In this document: one piece after another, positions 1,742 to 56,535 of the stretch | Position numbering within the stretch: position 1 is the first letter of the stretch | Layout: each line of letters opens with the position of its first letter | Assembly (NCBI RefSeq): GCF_002224645.1 | Contig: NZ_CP022121.1 | Location: 186,001 to 250,000 of the forward strand | Source: Dehalobacterium formicoaceticum | GTDB taxonomy: Bacteria; Bacillota; Dehalobacteriia; Dehalobacteriales; Dehalobacteriaceae | DNA length: 64,000 bases | Direction of reading: 5' to 3' | Notes under the pieces: generated by a model | The model's input: the letters and a program-made list of their open reading frames with translations, nothing else | Database searches by the model: none | Told to the model about the DNA's origin: nothing | Made by a program: the position numbers and the translations under genes

Positions 1742-3037
<1,296 letters not shown>

Positions 3038-8992: not shown

Positions 8993-9877
8993 CTATTTAC
9001 CCGTTAGCACTAAAACTTCCTCTAGGGTAATGTCACGGTAACCTTGAAAAATCATATTGATCATGGTTTTCTCCGTGATGACACCTAATAATTGCCCCTG
9101 ATGATTTAATACAAAAACGAGATGATATCGAAATGGGACTAACCTGATCATGATCTTTTCCAAAGTAACCTGGGGGCAAGCTATCAGAATGCTGGCCGGC
9201 AAAAAACCATCCTCTTTTATTTCTTTTTCCTTTTGAGTCAGATAGCTCATGAAACTAATAAAAGCCATCTTCTGCTCTTGCTCATTGATATAAAATAAAT
9301 AAGCAGCGATCACCCACCAATGAAAGTTTGCCCAACTCTGATGCAAGGCCCATGCCCCATAAATAAAAAAAAATGCGGCTCCGATTTGTCCCAGCATAAA
9401 CACCAGCTTGGCTGTATAAAAATAACCGATGAAACGGGACAAAATCCCGCGCAAAATCCGGCCGCCATCAAAAGGCCACATGGGGATTAAATTAAAACAA
9501 CCGATGGCCAGGGTTGCCTGCCAAAGAAATACCCAAGTCTCTTCCGGCCTAAAATCAAAATAGAGGAATAGTCCAAAAACACAGGCCAGTAAAAAGTTCA
9601 CACCAGGACCGGCTAAAGCCAGGGTCAGCTCTTTTTTTAGACCTCCGGCGTAGATATTTTCCATGCGAGCTACCCCTCCCAGGGGAAGCAAGTCAATGGT
9701 TTTTACCTGAATCCCCCAATACCTGGCAACCATTACATGTCCCAGCTCATGGGCCATCAAAATGCCAAAAACCATCACCGCCTGCGCTCCAATCCCCAGT
9801 AAAAAACACACTATCAAAAGAAGGGGCAGGAGCATCGATGCCCTAATCTGAATGCCGTACAACTGACCTATTTTCAT
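8993..9877 (-). CDS. spoIVFB: SpoIVFB-type site-2 protease with CBS-like tail
   Basis: About 294 aa, a polytopic membrane metalloprotease. The zinc motif HELGH is at residues 44-48 and the third ligand region 'PFDGGR' at about 136-141; several hydrophobic segments surround them and a CBS-like cytoplasmic region closes the protein (about 215-290). SpoIVFB cleaves pro-sigma-K in the outer forespore membrane in Bacillus. Adjacency to a SpoIVFA-like M23 protein and location between min genes and rplU match the Bacillus locus. An alternative ATG lies at 9880. Confidence 0.92.
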   Translation of the reverse strand: MKIGQLYGIQIRASMLLPLLLIVCFLLGIGAQAVMVFGILMAHELGHVMVARYWGIQVKTIDLLPLGGVARMENIYAGGLKKELTLALAGPGVNFLLACVFGLFLYFDFRPEETWVFLWQATLAIGCFNLIPMWPFDGGRILRGILSRFIGYFYTAKLVFMLGQIGAAFFFIYGAWALHQSWANFHWWVIAAYLFYINEQEQKMAFISFMSYLTQKEKEIKEDGFLPASILIACPQVTLEKIMIRLVPFRYHLVFVLNHQGQLLGVITEKTMINMIFQGYRDITLEEVLVLTGK

Positions 9878-9889
9878 CATTTCCTACAA

Positions 9890-10528
9890 TCAAACGTCAG
9901 CTCGGCTGCTGCGCAAATAATCCAAGGGATCTACCGAAGTTCCTTTGAGACGAATCTCAAAATGAATCTCACCCTTACCTGTTTCTCCAATGGAGTCTCC
10001 TTGTCTGATTTGTTGATTCGGACTGACCTTGACTCGGGCTAAGTTGCCATAAATACTGGTTAGCTCGGCATTATGCTTGATCGTCACTTGATACCCCTGG
10101 TGAATATCACCGGAGATCTCTTCGACAATTCCGGCCGCCCCGGCCTTCACAGGCTGGATCTTTTGACTTTTGATATCGATACCTCCATGCCAGCCGTTTT
10201 CTTGATTACCATTATCAGCACTCCAGCCAAAGTTTTGTGTCACAATTCCGGAAACGGGCAAAACCATAGGCTCAAGTAAATCAGCATCCCCCGTGCTAAG
10301 GCTGATCACCTCTTGAATCGCCGGTGTCCAATCATTTTCAGAGGATAGGGAAGAAGTGATGATATTTTTTGCCATTCCGCCCAAGGAACTTTCTGAACCT
10401 ATTAACACCCAAATTAATATAACAACCCACAAGGAAACCACCAGCTGCCAGATCCACTTTTTTCTGATCTTTCTCCCCCAGACAAAAATCCTCTGTGACT
10501 TGGAATCCTCTTTTATTTTTAAAGACAT
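9890..10528 (-). CDS. spoIVFA: SpoIVFA-like membrane-anchored M23/LytM-domain protein
   Basis: About 212 aa: a basic cytoplasmic N-terminus, one membrane segment (about 25-45), a linker and a C-terminal LytM/M23 domain ('GWHGGIDIKS', 'IHFEIRLKGTSVDPLDYL'). The first zinc-site histidine is replaced in context (HGGID rather than HxxxD with full ligands), and the tail reads H-F-E rather than HxH, so it is probably a non-catalytic scaffold, as SpoIVFA is. SpoIVFA tethers and inhibits SpoIVFB. The start at 10528 follows AGGAGG with 8-nt spacing; the upstream ATG at 10552 overlaps that site. Confidence 0.82.
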   Translation of the reverse strand: MSLKIKEDSKSQRIFVWGRKIRKKWIWQLVVSLWVVILIWVLIGSESSLGGMAKNIITSSLSSENDWTPAIQEVISLSTGDADLLEPMVLPVSGIVTQNFGWSADNGNQENGWHGGIDIKSQKIQPVKAGAAGIVEEISGDIHQGYQVTIKHNAELTSIYGNLARVKVSPNQQIRQGDSIGETGKGEIHFEIRLKGTSVDPLDYLRSSRADV

Positions 10529-10657
10529 TCTTTTCTCCTCCTGGGCATGCAAGTCTTATTTATATATATTGCTCCGGGAAGAAAGATATGAATTTAAATT
10601 CCATGTAAATCTCACTGTTACAAATTGATTTCAATATCACTCCTAAAAATTAAAAAA

Positions 10658-45943: not shown

Positions 45944-46054
45944 TTATTGCAGAGCCCGAGGAAGAAAATACCAAATAAGCATCGCCAATAATCCACTGTA
46001 AAACAAAAGTTCTACAAGCATTAATATCCTATTCTTTTCATATTTACCGCTCAT
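45944..46054 (-). CDS. 36-aa single-span membrane protein overlapping the cytochrome b gene
   Basis: The frame gives MSGKYEKNRILMLVELLFYS and continues GLLAMLIWYFLPRALQ, one membrane helix of about 22 residues with a charged N-terminus. Its ATG lies inside the last codons of the cytochrome b gene (CATGAGCGGTAA), with GAGGAGG 9 nt upstream, so translation is coupled. The position and size suggest a small accessory subunit of the cytochrome complex, like the tiny subunits of other membrane oxidoreductases. No family recognised. Confidence 0.65.
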   Translation of the reverse strand: MSGKYEKNRILMLVELLFYSGLLAMLIWYFLPRALQ

Positions 46055-46754
46055 GGTCCTTCTCCTCCTCTTCCAATCGTGCCAATTCCAGGGGATATTC
46101 TTCTTCCATCACCTCGCGGCTGAGCCGGCCGGTTAACCAAACCTGATTCATCGGGAAAAAGCTGGGTGTAAAATGCACTGAATAAATGTGCCAGATAAAA
46201 ATTACCAGAATCGCTAAAAGTGCCTCTCCTTGGTGAATAACATGAGCGCTGTCAATCACCTGACGGGGAAAGATATTAGCTGCTACATGAGGGAACCAAA
46301 GTATCAGACCGGTGACAATCATCACCGGTGTACCCCAATATTCTGCCAGATAATCCACCTTTTCCTTGTAGGAATATTTGGAAAACCGAGGACCTTCTTT
46401 GGCAAAACCTAAGAAAAGACGAAGATTGGCGATAATGTCTTTGGCATCCTGGATACGCGGCAGCATAGATCCGCGCAATTTCCCCTGGAAAGCCAGCACT
46501 ATCAAATAGATCAGATGATAAAAGGCATTGATCATCATGAGCACCGCAGCGGTAAGATGAACCAGAAAAAGATTCTCAAAGGATCCGAAAATTTGAGCTG
46601 CCTTCTGAACCCAGCCGGTATATGCAAAATGCATCATCAGGCCGGTTACAGTAAGTAGTGTAAAGCTAAGCACCATGAACCAATGCTGAATCCGCTGATG
46701 GATATCCCAACGATCATAAAGCCGTTCCGATTTATGCTCCACAGGATTGTCCAT
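46044..46754 (-). CDS. Membrane cytochrome b (formate dehydrogenase-gamma/hydrogenase type)
   Basis: About 236 aa, with four or five membrane helices and histidines in them suited to bind b-type hemes ('WDIHQRIQHWFMVLSFTLL', 'VHLTAAVLMMINAFYHLIY', 'DSAHVIHQGEALLAILVIFIWHIYSVHF'). The fold matches di-heme cytochrome b subunits that exchange electrons with the quinone pool. It is coupled to the upstream multiheme cytochrome c (21 nt) and overlaps the downstream 36-aa peptide. The start at 46754 follows AAGGAGG. Together they probably move electrons between menaquinone and the cell exterior. Confidence 0.88.
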   Translation of the reverse strand: MDNPVEHKSERLYDRWDIHQRIQHWFMVLSFTLLTVTGLMMHFAYTGWVQKAAQIFGSFENLFLVHLTAAVLMMINAFYHLIYLIVLAFQGKLRGSMLPRIQDAKDIIANLRLFLGFAKEGPRFSKYSYKEKVDYLAEYWGTPVMIVTGLILWFPHVAANIFPRQVIDSAHVIHQGEALLAILVIFIWHIYSVHFTPSFFPMNQVWLTGRLSREVMEEEYPLELARLEEEEKDHER

Positions 46755-46775
46755 AAAAACCACCTCCTTGGCAGA

Positions 46776-47579
46776 TTATTGTTTTCGGGTACGAAGTCTA
46801 TGTAACAAGTCCAAGATAATATGGATCAGGAAAAATCCCACCACCAATAAAATTAACCACATAAACGCCTTATTAATCCAGTACATGGGTGCGCTGTAGC
46901 CTGTCGGTTCTAAAGTATAATGTTCCTTGGCATTGACCCCAATGGCCCCATTACCATGGCATTCTCCGCATAATTGGGGTTTTTGATCCGGATGAGTCAT
47001 GGATAAAGGATCATTTTTACTGAGCACTTTATGAGCACCGTGGCAGCCTGTACAATCAGGAGAATCTTTCGCGCCTAAGGCCACCGCCTTACCATGAAAA
47101 CTATCTTGATAGGATTCAATTACGCCGCCATGACAGTCTCCGCAGGTTTCAATAATCATCTTTTTGTGCACAGGTGAGGCAGGATTGTCTGCAGGCAGGA
47201 TGCCATGTGCTTCGCCGTGGCAATTGGTACAACTGGGTCCATAGGAGGAGTTTTGATGGACGCTCTGCTGATAATCATCAACTGCTCCTGAATGGCATGT
47301 CCCACAAGATTGGGTGGGATCAGAACTCACTCCTTGGGTAAACTGATGACAAGAAAGACAATCCACGGAAGCATGTACAGATGCATCATAGACCTCTTTG
47401 TCCACATAAATGGAAACCATCTTCCCGTCTTGCTCCATGGTTACTCCTTCATAACCATGACATTGCAAACACTGAGTGGAATCTGTAAACACGCTGTGAT
47501 CGGTTGTCTCAGCAAAAACCAAAGTTGTCCCCATAAAGGTAATGATAAGCAATGACCAAATCGTGATTCTTATTTTCAT
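46776..47579 (-). CDS. Seven-heme membrane-anchored cytochrome c
   Basis: About 267 aa: an N-terminal signal peptide (about 1-24), an extracytoplasmic domain with seven CxxCH heme-binding motifs (CLQCH, CLSCH, CGTCH, CTNCH, CGDCH, CTGCH, CGECH) and a C-terminal membrane helix ('AFMWLILLVVGFFLIHIILDLLHRLRTRK'). Interspersed SVH and SFH histidines may be distal ligands. The architecture resembles cytochromes that accept electrons from a quinol-oxidising cytochrome b. The start at 47579 is placed at the signal peptide, 34 codons inside a longer open frame. Cytochrome c maturation genes are not in this window. Confidence 0.92.
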   Translation of the reverse strand: MKIRITIWSLLIITFMGTTLVFAETTDHSVFTDSTQCLQCHGYEGVTMEQDGKMVSIYVDKEVYDASVHASVDCLSCHQFTQGVSSDPTQSCGTCHSGAVDDYQQSVHQNSSYGPSCTNCHGEAHGILPADNPASPVHKKMIIETCGDCHGGVIESYQDSFHGKAVALGAKDSPDCTGCHGAHKVLSKNDPLSMTHPDQKPQLCGECHGNGAIGVNAKEHYTLEPTGYSAPMYWINKAFMWLILLVVGFFLIHIILDLLHRLRTRKQ

Positions 47580-47770
47580 GCATCTTGCCCCTTTCTCTTG
47601 GCGATATTTCGATAATGACGATCGTCTGCCGAAAGAGTTTAACAATAAAAACATTTTATCATTTCCTCTTTGGAAATTCAATCCATCCTTCTCTTGTCAG
47701 GCAATTTCTATTTTGCCCTGAAAATTCATTCACATACTGATTCTTATCTCAATAATGAGAACATCTACTT

Positions 47771-51576: not shown

Positions 51577-52218
51577 TTAATGATCGGATAATATTCGTTC
51601 CATTAAATCCGCAACCTCGGTAGCTTCGGCAGCATAGCCGTCTGCTTTAACCTTATCCGCAAAATCTTTCGTGGTAGGACCGCCGCCCACAACAATCTTG
51701 ATTCGATCCCTAAGCTTTTTTTGTTCCAGTTCTTGAATTGTTTCCGGTATTACACCCATGGTGGTAGTAAGCATCGCCGACATGGCTAAGACATCCGGGT
51801 GATACTCCACTACTGCCTGAACATAATCCTCCGGCTGCACATCGACACCCAAGTCAATGACATCCAGACCGGCCCCCCGCATCATCATCACCACCAGGTT
51901 TTTCCCGATATCATGTAAATCACCGGCCACCGTACCAATTACGACACGGCCTTTTAATGATTGCTGGGCTTCCGATAAAATTGGTTTCAAAACATGAAGT
52001 CCGGCATGCATCGCCCGGGAAACAATTAACACATCTGAAATATAGACTTGATTATTCTTAAATTTTTCACTGATAATCCGCATTCCGGGGAGAAGTCCTT
52101 TTTCCAGGACGGTCATCGGTTCAATTCCTTTACTTAGGGCATCCTTTGTCAAGTCTCTTACCACATTGGCTTTGCCCTCCAACAAGGCTTCCTGAATTAA
52201 GGCGTATTCATAACTCAT
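51577..52218 (-). CDS. mtaC: Methanol-type corrinoid protein (MtaC-like)
   Basis: A 213-aa protein with an N-terminal helical B12-binding cap (about 1-85) and a cobalamin-binding Rossmann domain. The base-off motif D100-x-H102-x-x-G105 ('DLHDIG') supplies the lower-ligand histidine; 'MSAMLTTTMG' and 'VVGGGPTTKDFADKVKADGYA' complete the site. It would carry the methyl group from MtaB to a second methyltransferase (MtaA or a THF-linked MtrH/MtvA type) not in this window. It lies 27 nt downstream of the AraC regulator. Specific substrate (methanol or another methoxy compound) is inferred from the mtaB neighbour. Confidence 0.9.
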   Translation of the reverse strand: MSYEYALIQEALLEGKANVVRDLTKDALSKGIEPMTVLEKGLLPGMRIISEKFKNNQVYISDVLIVSRAMHAGLHVLKPILSEAQQSLKGRVVIGTVAGDLHDIGKNLVVMMMRGAGLDVIDLGVDVQPEDYVQAVVEYHPDVLAMSAMLTTTMGVIPETIQELEQKKLRDRIKIVVGGGPTTKDFADKVKADGYAAEATEVADLMERILSDH

Positions 52219-52245
52219 CTCGTCTCCTCCCCATATCCCGGTTGG

Positions 52246-53562
52246 TTATAACGCTTTCTGCTTATATTGGCTGGGTGTGATCCCCTCGATTTTTTTGAAT
52301 ACTCTGGTAAAATAACCTGGGTCTTCAAAGCCATTTTCTTCCGCTACTTGCATCACATTATACTGAGGATTTTTAAGCATCACCCTAGCATTTTCCACTC
52401 TTACCTGGGCAAGATAATCCATTAAGGTACATCCTAGACTTTTTTTAAAGATGCGGCTTAAATAACAAGGACTAAGATATACTTCTTGGGCAATATCATC
52501 TATCGTTAATTTTTCACGGAAATTCTTTCTAATAAATTCTGCCGCTTTCTGAGTCGCTTGCAAACCCGTTTTATCTTTGGAAACATCTACCAAATCAATA
52601 AAGGTTTTCAGCATATTTTGGGCCAATAGACACATCTCATCAATTTTAAATTGATCAAGTACCTCTCGATAATAGCGGACATTCAATTTTGAAACTTGAT
52701 TCATGTCCGCACCCCCATCCAGGGCTGAACGAGAAACAATCACCAACAGTTCAATAACTCTCATTTTTAGGGCATCCATATCACCACTGGTTTGTGTTAA
52801 AATTTCGGCAAGAAGTTTTTCCAAAAGCAAGCTGGCGTCCTTATATTCGCAATTGCGCACTTCATTTTTCAATTTATGCTCTTTCTCCATATAATAAATG
52901 CGTTGGGATCGGGATTCTATGGTGCGCATCGCCACCTCTGCTTGTTTCCGCGCCTGCATTTCATCTGCTAATTCTGCCTGCTGAGCAGCAATTTTCCTTC
53001 TTTGTTCCAAGAGAATTAAACCGCTTTTCATGATTTGATTGGCGACAATAAATAGTAAGTCGGCTGCCGCCTGGACTTTACCACTGGACAGTACATTCAA
53101 TTGGGATGCTGCCAACTTAATTTGGACAAGATCCAGATCCAGCCCCTTCACCATTTCTTCTATTTCTTCCAGAAAATAATCTTCCGGTTCCCACATTAAA
53201 ACCTGGCCGCAGATCATGGAACCTATATGTTCATCCAGAATGATAGGCGCAGCCCAAGCGATTAAGCCTCCATGGCAGCGAAATATATAAGGTTCTCCAT
53301 ATTTAGCCGCTTCTTTTCCCGCCTGAGCATAAGAACGTTGACATTTTGCCAATCCTTTTTGATCCGACCTGATCATTTGACAAAATTTACAATCCACGAT
53401 TTCTTTTTCTGGGGATATGATGGTATTTCCTTCCGTATCCACAAAAACAGCCTTTAGACCGGTAGATCTTGAAAAGGAGGAAAGCATTTTTTGCAGAATA
53501 TCATGATCTACTAATTGCTCCAGCCACTCCAAACTCCTTGACGATGTTCCTTTTTTCATCAC
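52246..53562 (-). CDS. PocR-domain AraC family regulator
   Basis: About 438 aa. An N-terminal PocR sensory domain (about 15-175) with the cysteine pattern 'DCKFCQMIRSDQKGLAKCQRSYAQAG' and 'PYIFRCHGGLIAWAAPI' is followed by a coiled coil (about 190-235), a linker domain and a C-terminal AraC DNA-binding domain with two helix-turn-helix units ('LTIDDIAQEVYLSPCYLSRIFK', 'NVMQVAEENGFEDPGYFTRVFK'). PocR domains are linked to small alcohols, diols and C1 compounds. Encoded between mtaB and mtaC, it is likely their substrate-responsive activator. The GTG at 53562 fits AGGAGG best. Confidence 0.92.
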   Translation of the reverse strand: MMKKGTSSRSLEWLEQLVDHDILQKMLSSFSRSTGLKAVFVDTEGNTIISPEKEIVDCKFCQMIRSDQKGLAKCQRSYAQAGKEAAKYGEPYIFRCHGGLIAWAAPIILDEHIGSMICGQVLMWEPEDYFLEEIEEMVKGLDLDLVQIKLAASQLNVLSSGKVQAAADLLFIVANQIMKSGLILLEQRRKIAAQQAELADEMQARKQAEVAMRTIESRSQRIYYMEKEHKLKNEVRNCEYKDASLLLEKLLAEILTQTSGDMDALKMRVIELLVIVSRSALDGGADMNQVSKLNVRYYREVLDQFKIDEMCLLAQNMLKTFIDLVDVSKDKTGLQATQKAAEFIRKNFREKLTIDDIAQEVYLSPCYLSRIFKKSLGCTLMDYLAQVRVENARVMLKNPQYNVMQVAEENGFEDPGYFTRVFKKIEGITPSQYKQKAL

Positions 53563-53797
53563 GTAGGCCACCTCCTATTTGGGTTTCCATGCCTCCAAGT
53601 TGTCAAAGAAATGCGTCTGTATATCCGTCCTGCATACTTATTTTTTTTTGAAAATCTCTTTAAATATATTATGATTACGGCTATTATTCATTGATCCTAT
53701 TATAACAGATTCTGAAGTTTATTTTAAAACATTTCTATTATTGATATTTATTCCATAAATAAGGTTAAGTACAGCCGTCCTTAAATAATGATATGAC

Positions 53798-53835
53798 TAA
53801 GTGACGCTTAGTTATTTTCTGCTAAGCGCCACTTA
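53798..53835. other. Long hairpin between mtaB and the regulator gene
   Basis: TAAGTGACGCTTAG and CTAAGCGCCACTTA form a 14-bp stem with one mismatch, about 45 nt after the mtaB stop. No strong T-run follows in either direction, so it may be a processing or stability hairpin that sets different levels of mtaB and mtaC, or a weak terminator. The rest of the ~320-nt gap to the regulator start shows no gene. Confidence 0.6.
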
Positions 53836-53881
53836 ATCTTATTAATGTTATTTAGCCTGAATCTTTTGGATATTTTGTTTC

Positions 53882-55258
53882 TTATAGATCATATTGCTTG
53901 GGGTCAAATTTATCGTTGGTATTGTTCTTAATCATTTCTGCTGTAAATTGAGCTTCATCATCGGGTACAGTGGCCAACTGCTGTTCCAGAATATCTAAAT
54001 AGTTTACTTCACGCTCAGTCACGTCCAGTTCCTTCGCAGCAATGCCCCGTTTTAATTCTTCAATGGTAGCTTGGGCAGCGATCTTCGTTCTTTCAAAAGT
54101 GGTTTTTCCTTTGATAATTTTGGCACTTAGATCTAAGACGACTTTCGGATCAAGAATATAAGCATGAGGATCCAATTTTTTATCTGAAGCAACCATAACA
54201 TCTTGATAAATCTTAGCTTGACCTAAAGCAGTAAAGGTATTAAACAAACGGCAATCGTAGATTAATTGTTCCATGTAAACAGTAGGAGCCATTCCACCCA
54301 GCATTCTTTGAAATTCTACGGATTCGTTGCTCCAGCAGTCACAGAGGGCTCCGACGATATTTCCTACAGAACTGGAATGAGCACAGGCACTGGTTCGCCC
54401 TTCCATAGAAATAGGTGTTCCTGTAATCGCTTTGAGATATACTCCTTCGTAACCGCAGTCTTTATCCGGACCGGTAGCACCACATTCCACAGCCACCATG
54501 GTTCTAACCGCACACATCACCCGATCAATTGCTGCAAATACTCGAGGAATAAAGTTCTTTTCCGCCAAAACCATGGAGGTATTACCGAAACCACAAGCGG
54601 TATCACCAGATGCCACGGAACCTGTTTCTTTGGCGATTTTTACGATATTGGTCCAAAGCACTTCCATATCTTTGGCACCTACTACTCCAAGGGCGAATAA
54701 GGCTTTGGGCAAATCACAATTCATCACTGCTTCATCATGAAGATGTTTGCCGCCCACGGATTCAATAGCCAGCATATCGGCACCGACTTCCGCAGAACCT
54801 TGGAAGGTTTTCATAACTTTATCCCAATGTTCTCCATGATACATATGCACTAAGTCATTGCCTTCCCGAATGTCGACGGGGGTGAGACGCAAAAGACTTT
54901 TAAGTCCTTGACCCTCATATTCCCGCAGCACATCTTTGACAACTTTAGCTACATCAATGCCCCATTGGGGATTAAAGGTACAGGGAGGAAGAAGTTCAAT
55001 TTCTACAATAATTCCGGGAGCATGTAGTTTTATCGCCTTCTCACAAGCCCCGGTAATCATTTCCTTATATTGGGAAAGTACTTTTTTCATCGTAGACTCA
55101 TTAATGCTTATCGGAGGCAAAGTAACATTCAATTCAGGATAAACAATCCCGTTTCCAATCACCATCCCGTTTTTAAAAGTAACCGGTTTTTTGGCATACC
55201 CATAAATAAATTCATCCAGATTGTTATAAGCGAGCTCATTAAAAGTAAGTTTTGCCAT
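53882..55258 (-). CDS. mtaB: Methanol:corrinoid methyltransferase (MtaB-like)
   Basis: A 458-aa TIM-barrel zinc enzyme that transfers the methyl of methanol to the Co(I) corrinoid of MtaC. Candidate zinc ligands, by position relative to characterised MtaB (Glu164, Cys220, Cys269), are E166 in 'LAIESVGG', C222 in 'TACGFGNT' and C268 in 'DKDCGYEG'. Length matches the family. TTAGGAGGAAAC precedes the ATG. It is the first gene of the mtaB-pocR-mtaC set and diverges from a CobW-type GTPase. Related bacterial homologues may act on other methylated substrates, so methanol is probable, not proven. Confidence 0.9.
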   Translation of the reverse strand: MAKLTFNELAYNNLDEFIYGYAKKPVTFKNGMVIGNGIVYPELNVTLPPISINESTMKKVLSQYKEMITGACEKAIKLHAPGIIVEIELLPPCTFNPQWGIDVAKVVKDVLREYEGQGLKSLLRLTPVDIREGNDLVHMYHGEHWDKVMKTFQGSAEVGADMLAIESVGGKHLHDEAVMNCDLPKALFALGVVGAKDMEVLWTNIVKIAKETGSVASGDTACGFGNTSMVLAEKNFIPRVFAAIDRVMCAVRTMVAVECGATGPDKDCGYEGVYLKAITGTPISMEGRTSACAHSSSVGNIVGALCDCWSNESVEFQRMLGGMAPTVYMEQLIYDCRLFNTFTALGQAKIYQDVMVASDKKLDPHAYILDPKVVLDLSAKIIKGKTTFERTKIAAQATIEELKRGIAAKELDVTEREVNYLDILEQQLATVPDDEAQFTAEMIKNNTNDKFDPKQYDL

Positions 55259-55351
55259 TTTGTTTCCTCCTAAAAATCTTATTTTTTCTTTTTTTTGCTT
55301 TGAGAACTTTATTGTATTTTAAATATTCTAACAAACTAATTAATTCCCTTG

Positions 55352-55385
55352 GGACAATCTTTTGATAAATCGTCAAATCTTGTCC
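55352..55385. promoter_or_regulatory. 34-bp interrupted dyad in the mtaB-cobW divergent promoter region
   Basis: GGACAA (55352-55357) and TTTGA (55361-55365) mirror TCAAA (55373-55377) and TTGTCC (55380-55385), with a 7-nt centre. It is 94 nt upstream of mtaB and 203 nt upstream of cobW, a good place for an operator of the PocR-AraC regulator. The 329-nt intergenic region is very A/T-rich and holds no gene. Confidence 0.5.
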
Positions 55386-55587
55386 TGTTTGTTTTTTTGT
55401 TCTTTTTTTAAATTTTTGTGATGAAAATTTAAAATTTTTCTCCTTGCTATTTTCTTATGTTTGTTTTTTTGCACAGAATAGTGATGTTTTTGTCAAGAAG
55501 ATCCCTGGAAAATGGTGCAAAATAATCTTAAGATAAAAGTTAATAAAAAATTAGAAATAATATTGGCTTGATAGGAGGAAAATACGC

Positions 55588-56535
55588 ATGGTTCGACTTG
55601 ATATTGTTTCCGGATTTTTAGGTGCTGGGAAAACAGCCTTTATCAAAAAAATAATTGAAGCCTGCATAGAACGCCGCGAAAAAATCGTGCTGATTGAAAA
55701 CGAATACGGGCAAATCAACGTGGACGGTGCCTTATTAAAGGATCAGGATATTGAAATTCACGAGTTGCTCCAAGGCTGTGTCTGCTGTACGCTAAAGGAA
55801 GAATTTGCTTTTACCCTACAAAAAATCCTGCAACAAAAGCCAGATCGGATTATATTCGAGCCCTCCGGGATCTTTATCTTTGATGAAATCTTTAATCTCT
55901 TTAAGGATCCGAAAATAGCTGAGCAATGTTACATTAATTCCGTAACTACCATTGTTGATGCTCCTAATTTTCATCAAAACAACAATAGCTTTACCCGTTT
56001 TTTTGATAACCAAATCCAGCACGCTTCCACTTTGGTATTAAGCAAAACCCAAAACATGGCACCGGCAGCAATAGAAGAAATTGTTCAGTTGCTCAAAGAA
56101 AAAAATAACCGCGCCCCCTGTATTGCCAAAGAATGGGGAGATATTTCCCATCAAGAAATGATGCTGATATTAGATGGTAACACCAAGTATGCTCTGAAAA
56201 ATTATTTGGAGGAAATGTCGGAGGATCATCATGTACATGAGCCCCATGTTTTTCAGTCAGTAGGCATCAGAACAGGACGAATTTTTGAGCAGACTGAACT
56301 GGAAGAAATCTTGGGACAATTGTCTACTGCCCAATATGGAAAGATTTTGAGGGGCAAGGGGATTGTTAATGCCCGGGAAAATTGCTGGGAATTTAATATC
56401 GTCAACGGAGCATATCAGATTGACAAGATCTCCTCCACTACCTCAGGTATTGCCAGCTTCATCGGCCTTGATTTGAAAAAAGAAAAATTGCAGTCCCTCT
56501 TTGTTAAGGCTGACCCATTCCTTATGTTCCCATAA
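55588..56535 (+). CDS. CobW/COG0523 family GTPase (metallochaperone-like)
   Basis: A 315-aa G3E GTPase. Walker A 'GFLGAGKT' at residues 9-16, the metal-binding CxCC motif 'GCVCC' (C64, C66, C67), 'FEPSGIF' switch region and a C-terminal CobW_C domain. COG0523 proteins deliver zinc or cobalt to client enzymes. Here it is divergent from the zinc enzyme MtaB and its cobalt partner MtaC, which suggests metal or corrinoid maturation for that system. The standard NKxD motif is not obvious ('LSKTQNMA' is the nearest). Strong ribosome site and own terminator. Confidence 0.9.
   Translation: MVRLDIVSGFLGAGKTAFIKKIIEACIERREKIVLIENEYGQINVDGALLKDQDIEIHELLQGCVCCTLKEEFAFTLQKILQQKPDRIIFEPSGIFIFDEIFNLFKDPKIAEQCYINSVTTIVDAPNFHQNNNSFTRFFDNQIQHASTLVLSKTQNMAPAAIEEIVQLLKEKNNRAPCIAKEWGDISHQEMMLILDGNTKYALKNYLEEMSEDHHVHEPHVFQSVGIRTGRIFEQTELEEILGQLSTAQYGKILRGKGIVNARENCWEFNIVNGAYQIDKISSTTSGIASFIGLDLKKEKLQSLFVKADPFLMFP

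Follow-up and report, generated by a model that had tools for sequence, protein, structure and literature searches.

The question raised by this locus is why a gene for a COG0523 protein stands back to back with a methanol methyltransferase operon in Dehalobacterium formicoaceticum, and whether its product serves the methyltransferase or the corrinoid protein. The locus lies in a stretch of 64,000 nucleotides (contig NZ_CP022121.1, positions 186,001 to 250,000; hereafter the window, from whose first letter coordinates are counted). COG0523 proteins are widespread metal chaperones for which few clients are known. A first-pass annotation had described here a set of mtaB, mtaC and a PocR-domain regulator gene faced by a divergent gene for a CobW-type GTPase, and had suggested that the GTPase could deliver zinc to MtaB or take part in cobalt/corrinoid loading of MtaC. 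All four genes are in place and supported by Pfam:

51577 to 52218, minus strand: mtaC, methyltransferase corrinoid protein of 213 amino acids (PF02310, 1.6e-27; PF02607, 2.1e-17)
52246 to 53571, minus strand: PocR-domain, AraC-type regulator of 441 amino acids (PF10114, 1.1e-46; HTH_18, 6e-22)
53882 to 55258, minus strand: mtaB, methanol:corrinoid methyltransferase of 458 amino acids (PF12176, 1.8e-167, 558 bits against a cut-off of 25)
55588 to 56535, plus strand: COG0523 (CobW-type) protein of 315 amino acids (cobW PF02492, 135 bits against a cut-off of 20.7; CobW_C PF07683, 31.9 bits against a cut-off of 22)

The reading that we favour, with moderate confidence, is that the COG0523 protein provides MtaB with zinc, as a chaperone or insertase under methanol regulation, and is thus a dedicated helper within the methanol module. 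According to this model, the locus would be a methanol-utilisation module in which MtaB, a zinc enzyme, activates methanol and then methylates MtaC. The PocR-AraC protein would turn the module on, and the divergently encoded COG0523 metallochaperone or insertase would be co-expressed with it and would load zinc into newly made MtaB through nucleotide hydrolysis. Such a helper would be useful where a highly expressed zinc enzyme competes for scarce metal. We infer the transfer of zinc to MtaB, as well as the nucleotide used by the COG0523 protein.

The first line of evidence is the frequency with which the two genes adjoin each other. The annotation had proposed a survey of mtaB loci for neighbouring COG0523 genes, and such a survey reveals COG0523 as a recurrent partner. 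In a set of 33 genomes with MtaB (4 of 43 in a class sample and 31 of 398 in a phylum sample, the two overlapping), 15 of the 33 MtaB genes have a COG0523 gene within 5 kb, against 0.16 expected by chance; the 33 include three that are broken or at a contig end. A COG0523 gene was called at a PF02492 score of at least 118 bits, a threshold that we placed in the gap above the HypB/UreG-like matches, which reach at most 93 bits. In the same genomes, COG0523 was found within 5 kb of 2 of the 150 MttB genes listed (of 234 found) against 1.03 expected, and one of these two cases, in genome G126, sits at the genome's own mtaB-COG0523 locus; the contrast between MtaB and the listed MttB genes has a Fisher p value of 3e-11. 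A second survey covered the best 80 of 577 confirmed MtaB loci, collected with the MtaB alignment and biased toward the kin of the window. Here COG0523 occurs within 5 kb at 25 of the 80 loci, and at 18 of the 48 with flanks of at least 4 kb on both sides. The COG0523 gene is on the mtaB strand at 16 of the 25 loci, and in 14 of these pairs the open frames are -75 to +258 bp apart and thus operon-like, the other two, from Sporomusa, being spaced by about 0.9-1.1 kb. The remaining nine loci are divergent and all close kin of the window. The pairing of mtaB with COG0523 therefore exceeds chance.

The comparison with MttB also bears on which partner is served. MtaB needs zinc whereas MttB is zinc-free, and both work with corrinoid proteins, those of the MttB systems being homologous. 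If the COG0523 protein acted on the corrinoid side, loading, protecting or repairing the cobalamin of MtaC in the way that MeaB/MMAA serves methylmalonyl-CoA mutase, a similar association with MttB would be predicted, so its chance-level occurrence there favours the zinc alternative of the first-pass annotation and makes the corrinoid alternative the less fitting one. It is true that the MeaB/MMAA corrinoid chaperones are among the G3E relatives, that MMAA structures appear among the fold matches of the AlphaFold2 model of the window protein, and that a corrinoid protein is often found near COG0523 alongside MtaB or UroD-type enzymes. However, RACo proteins, which are present in many of these loci, already carry out corrinoid reactivation, and the window protein stays far below the cut-off of the CobW model TIGR02475 (123.1 against 332.1 bits). 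A search of the 64-kb window at gathering thresholds gave no B12 riboswitch, and the neighbours of the COG0523 gene are methyltransferase genes. We consider a corrinoid role unlikely. The association with MtaB and not MttB, taken together with the kinship to znuA-linked COG0523 proteins described below, suggests that zinc is provided for the methyltransferase.

What kind of COG0523 protein is this? It has the P-loop GFLGAGKT, a GCVCC metal motif, an EPSG motif with the Walker B glutamate, a histidine stretch HHVHEPH and a CobW_C domain, and carries SKTQ where NKxD stands in G3E proteins. According to passages of Haas et al. (2009; PMC2770081), G3E GTPases are marked by an intact NKXD motif, and for this reason we speak of a COG0523 homologue and not of a proven G3E GTPase. 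The term 'CobW-type GTPase' in the first-pass annotation needs two corrections, as the protein is not a true CobW and GTPase activity is unproven. The best solved relative by sequence is Escherichia coli YjiA (1nij, 4ixm; 6.7e-22, about 20% identity), which unlike the window protein retains the motif aspartate (LTKTD). YjiA is also the top Foldseek match by E-value of the AlphaFold2 model (mean predicted local distance difference test score 86), but the superposition is poor (root-mean-square deviation about 20 A, two domains), so the model confirms the family only. One might suppose that the protein, far from carrying metal, regulates or helps to assemble the MtaB-MtaC complex, or that it is a degenerate NTPase that does not turn over, as the NKxD aspartate is gone from 33 of the 40 rows of its group in the tree. 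However, the P-loop, the Walker B glutamate and GCxCC are all kept in 19 of 19 aligned relatives, with G12, G14, K15, T16, C64, C66, C67 and E91 invariant, and we regard a non-carrier role as very unlikely. The histidine stretch does not serve as a mark of mtaB partners, a use that we had considered, since 3 of the 26 mtaB-adjacent rows in the window's group have it.

The 40-row group comes from a COG0523 tree in which 82 of 87 hits were kept, a quick tree with support from the Shimodaira-Hasegawa-like approximate likelihood ratio test (SH-aLRT) only. The tree splits this group (support 98) from rows with the NKxD motif. The latter include the partners of classical MtaB loci (L040-L047) and COG0523 proteins beside UroD-type methyltransferases with corrinoid proteins. 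The group itself contains the window protein, its Formimonas and Desulfosporosinus kin and the Lachnospiraceae partners, together with five COG0523 proteins beside ZnuA (PF01297) or ArsP/DUF1980 genes. The NKxD aspartate is found in 7 of its 40 rows against 39 of 42 elsewhere on the tree; among its 26 mtaB-adjacent rows it is present in five, and glutamine is the commonest residue there (13 rows). By sequence, then, the window protein and the partners at classical mtaB loci fall into different COG0523 groups. The mtaB-adjacent label changes six times on this tree, with at least four changes forced by strongly supported branches. On a quick MtaB tree of 107 rows, likewise with SH-aLRT support only, the label for COG0523 adjacency shows 12-13 scattered changes; this tree excludes L037, L038 and L039, whose genomes were already among the named loci, and fragments below 350 amino acids, and retains two identical pairs. 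The scatter on both trees suggests that the link arose more than once, and COG0523 appears to have joined mtaB loci several times.

Several relatives on or near this tree have features of their own. At four Lachnospiraceae mtaB loci (L134, L137, L143 and L150) the COG0523 genes are short (about 220-240 amino acids), with frames that overlap the end of mtaB and varied nucleotide motifs. The genome of D. formicoaceticum itself has a second COG0523 paralogue near 2.54 Mb (locus L069, region of 1746-3014 and 9501-10535) with a histidine-rich linker and SAVQ replacing NKxD; judged from the translations, a glyoxalase-like protein nearby appears to end in a CobW_C-like domain. At L207 (7279-9021), next to COG0523 and DUF1980-type genes, Pfam shows an ArsP-type permease that carries a cobW domain in fusion; length and position on the tree indicate the same for L208 and L212.

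The znuA-linked members of the group invite the view that the COG0523 gene responds to zinc starvation in general, as genes of the YciC/ZigA kind do, and is controlled by Zur and beside mtaB by accident. The window protein shares with that type the tree group, GCxCC and a histidine stretch, and passages of Haas et al. (2009; PMC2770081) link COG0523 widely to zinc starvation. Against this, the adjacency to mtaB is far above chance and is repeated across several lineages, and the protein scores 82 bits against a cut-off of 600 with the ZigA model NF038288. Neither a 9-1-9 palindrome nor a TAATnATTA site for Zur was found at the window gene, in a scan whose znuA positive controls likewise gave none and which thus had no power; what precedes the gene is an element of the methyltransferase type, and its regulation appears linked to the methyltransferase operon. 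That the gene is such a general zinc-starvation gene, beside mtaB by accident, is in our view quite unlikely.

The elements in question lie in the 329 bp between the divergent mtaB and COG0523 genes (55259-55587), so that the shared promoter region of the earlier description does have an operator-like element toward each side:

55348 to 55380, minus strand (read as mtaB-facing): operator-like element with AAGAT half-sites at a spacing of about 20 bp (best site, p 0.015, with a matrix excluding the window)
55493 to 55508, plus strand: operator-like element facing the COG0523 gene, TCAAGAAGATCCCTGG (p 0.001, with a matrix from methyltransferase-side sites of other loci)

In loci with divergent genes, the methyltransferase operon is faced by a conserved element in which AAGAT repeats, spaced by about 10 bp, are combined with a TCCATGG tail. 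Eight Desulfosporosinus-type loci supplied a matrix for this side, and in the three loci held out (the window and the Formimonas loci L038 and L054) the element is the best site, none of 200 shuffles doing as well in the two Formimonas cases. A 16-bp core of the element recurs facing the COG0523 gene, with p below 0.01 in 9 of 11 loci, L054 and L076 not being significant; its summed score is 147 against a maximum of 80 over 1000 shuffles, for loci that are related and hence not independent. In a scan of the whole window with the 16-bp core, the COG0523-side site ranks fourth and the mtaB-side site falls outside the top 15. The core is thus common across 64 kb and non-specific alone, so that the promoter evidence is positional. 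Among 12 other loci scanned for the 16-bp element, a strong site a short way before mtaB occurs in L053 only. Since direct repeats are the usual targets of AraC-family proteins, the PocR-AraC protein is the natural candidate, and it would presumably bind both operator-like elements, with methanol as the probable inducing signal. The arrangement suggests that the COG0523 gene and the methyltransferase operon may be under shared control.

The substrate of the module can be approached through its nearest relative. The window MtaB is the sole PF12176 match in its complete genome and aligns over nearly its full length with MtaB of Methanosarcina barkeri (2i2x; E 4e-95). The zinc ligands of that structure, which we take to be E164, C220 and C269, correspond in the alignment to E166, C222 and C268 of the window MtaB, residues that are invariant across 19 aligned MtaB proteins. 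While the ligands are kept, the strict NCBIfam equivalog models are missed: MtaB scores 430.5 bits with NF040651 (cut-off 720), MtaC 138.7 and 141 bits with the two MtaC models (cut-offs 420 and 450), its top model being MtgC at 250 (cut-off 370), and the regulator, which has both PF10114 and the AraC helix-turn-helix domain, 166.6 with the PocR model NF047788 (cut-off 500). As the CobW cut-off is missed too, the proteins are to be seen as divergent family members. MtaC has B12-binding and B12-binding_2 domains in Pfam, and the B12-ligand stretch GDLHDIGKN can be read off its translation. Whereas the methyl acceptor of the M. barkeri system is coenzyme M, tetrahydrofolate is expected here, in keeping with acetogen biochemistry. 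Among the named loci, the MtaB nearest to that of the window (82% identity) comes from Candidatus Formimonas warabiya DCMF, which also has a single PF12176 match, in the order mtaC-pocR-mtaB-mtaC with a divergent COG0523 gene, that is, the arrangement of the window plus one extra mtaC. Growth of F. warabiya on methanol is described in a passage of PMC8163858, and since its sole MtaB locus is near-identical in layout, the substrate of the window locus is likely to be methanol; this assignment draws on F. warabiya and not on the NCBIfam MtaB model. D. formicoaceticum, for its part, retains an apparently intact methanol module despite a lifestyle reported in part of PMC10344839 as restricted to dichloromethane, and a part of PMC10327494 later adds serine metabolism.

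Several observations weigh against a dedicated zinc helper for MtaB. Among the 33 MtaB genomes, 11 have no COG0523 match of at least 118 bits, and six of these are listed as at least 99% complete. Two close MtaB kin of the window, L053 and L079, have no adjoining COG0523 gene, and the methanol operon of Moorella thermoacetica is described without one in the portion of PMC13391211 concerned. The same holds for the report, in the portion of PMC10344839 mentioned above, that dichloromethane is the only carbon and energy source of D. formicoaceticum. The MttB control is weakened by its restriction to the genes listed, at least 33 MttB matches occurring in each of three genomes. Finally, NKxD-type COG0523 proteins also adjoin UroD-type methyltransferases with corrinoid proteins. 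Most of these UroD-type neighbours carry an HxC...C zinc motif, which points weakly to zinc for the methyltransferase; as most of the UroD-type proteins there have it, the motif does not discriminate. In view of the genomes without COG0523, the protein is an accessory and not an obligatory maturation factor, and is dispensable. On sequence evidence it is best read as an accessory chaperone that may help when zinc is limiting or the demand for MtaB is high.

Seven of the loci with UroD-type methyltransferases (L181, L184, L185, L188, L189, L194 and L200) combine the NKxD-type COG0523 gene with a MoxR-like AAA protein (a label from translation alone), DUF2284 and a VWA protein of 950-1000 amino acids, and a corrinoid protein was seen in all except L200. 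They possibly contain an AAA-VWA activase pair for a corrinoid methyltransferase.

The first-pass annotation had also raised the possibility of an undescribed maturation factor. This did not survive, as the pairing is found in passages of Haas et al. (2009; PMC2770081), besides the partner not being universal. These passages describe a COG0523 'subfamily 13' clustered with mtaA, mtaB, mtaC and ramM in Methanosarcina and Methanococcus, the same mta clustering in Clostridium botulinum as a bacterial case, and a COG0523 gene beside a MeTr homologue in Desulfitobacterium hafniense. The association itself was therefore already known, and the window is a variant from a second COG0523 lineage. It resembles subfamily 13 in adjoining mtaB and mtaC and in the type of role proposed. 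It differs in that, in our survey without archaeal sequences, the classical mtaB loci carry the NKxD type, whereas the window type is separate and mostly lacks the NKxD aspartate. No paper treating the bacterial mtaB-COG0523 partner further than Haas et al. (2009) was found in the open-licence literature, where the only other title brought up for the pairing was a review on cobalt in B12; CobW is not mentioned in PMC10418091, and part of PMC13222342 deals with a different, zinc-free chloromethane system. The present analysis adds controlled counts, a second lineage whose nucleotide motif is degenerate, repeated recruitment, the shared promoter elements and a limit set by dispensability.

Taken further, and only tentatively, anaerobic methylotrophs may have equipped MtaB with a dedicated zinc insertase on several independent occasions, the insertase of the window lineage having given up guanine specificity (NKxD to SKxQ) and perhaps using ATP or being nucleotide-promiscuous, with the methanol regulator co-producing the enzyme and its metal supply. 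If this were true, a COG0523 lineage with mostly unknown clients would gain a defined one in MtaB. Kept adjacency and shared promoter elements tie the lineage to one zinc enzyme and offer a testable chaperone-client pair, and the lost NKxD aspartate, common to the zinc-linked relatives, questions the routine 'GTPase' label for the group. The locus is of interest, too, for the use of methanol by anaerobes and for the question of what makes D. formicoaceticum retain it despite a reported life on dichloromethane.

One further feature was noted within the operon:

53795 to 53838, minus strand (counted from the folded strand): 17-bp hairpin between mtaB and the regulator gene, found by folding

The hairpin has a folding energy of -29.3 kcal/mol (z -4.5), equalled in none of 200 shuffles. 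It is possibly a partial terminator or an mRNA processing or stability element, and perhaps sets the ratio of mtaB to downstream mRNA. Near the locus, the region 46044-47681 encodes a multihaem cytochrome c-like protein (46776-47681) and, downstream of its gene, an open reading frame of 239 amino acids (46044-46763) that from its translation alone looks like a membrane cytochrome b.

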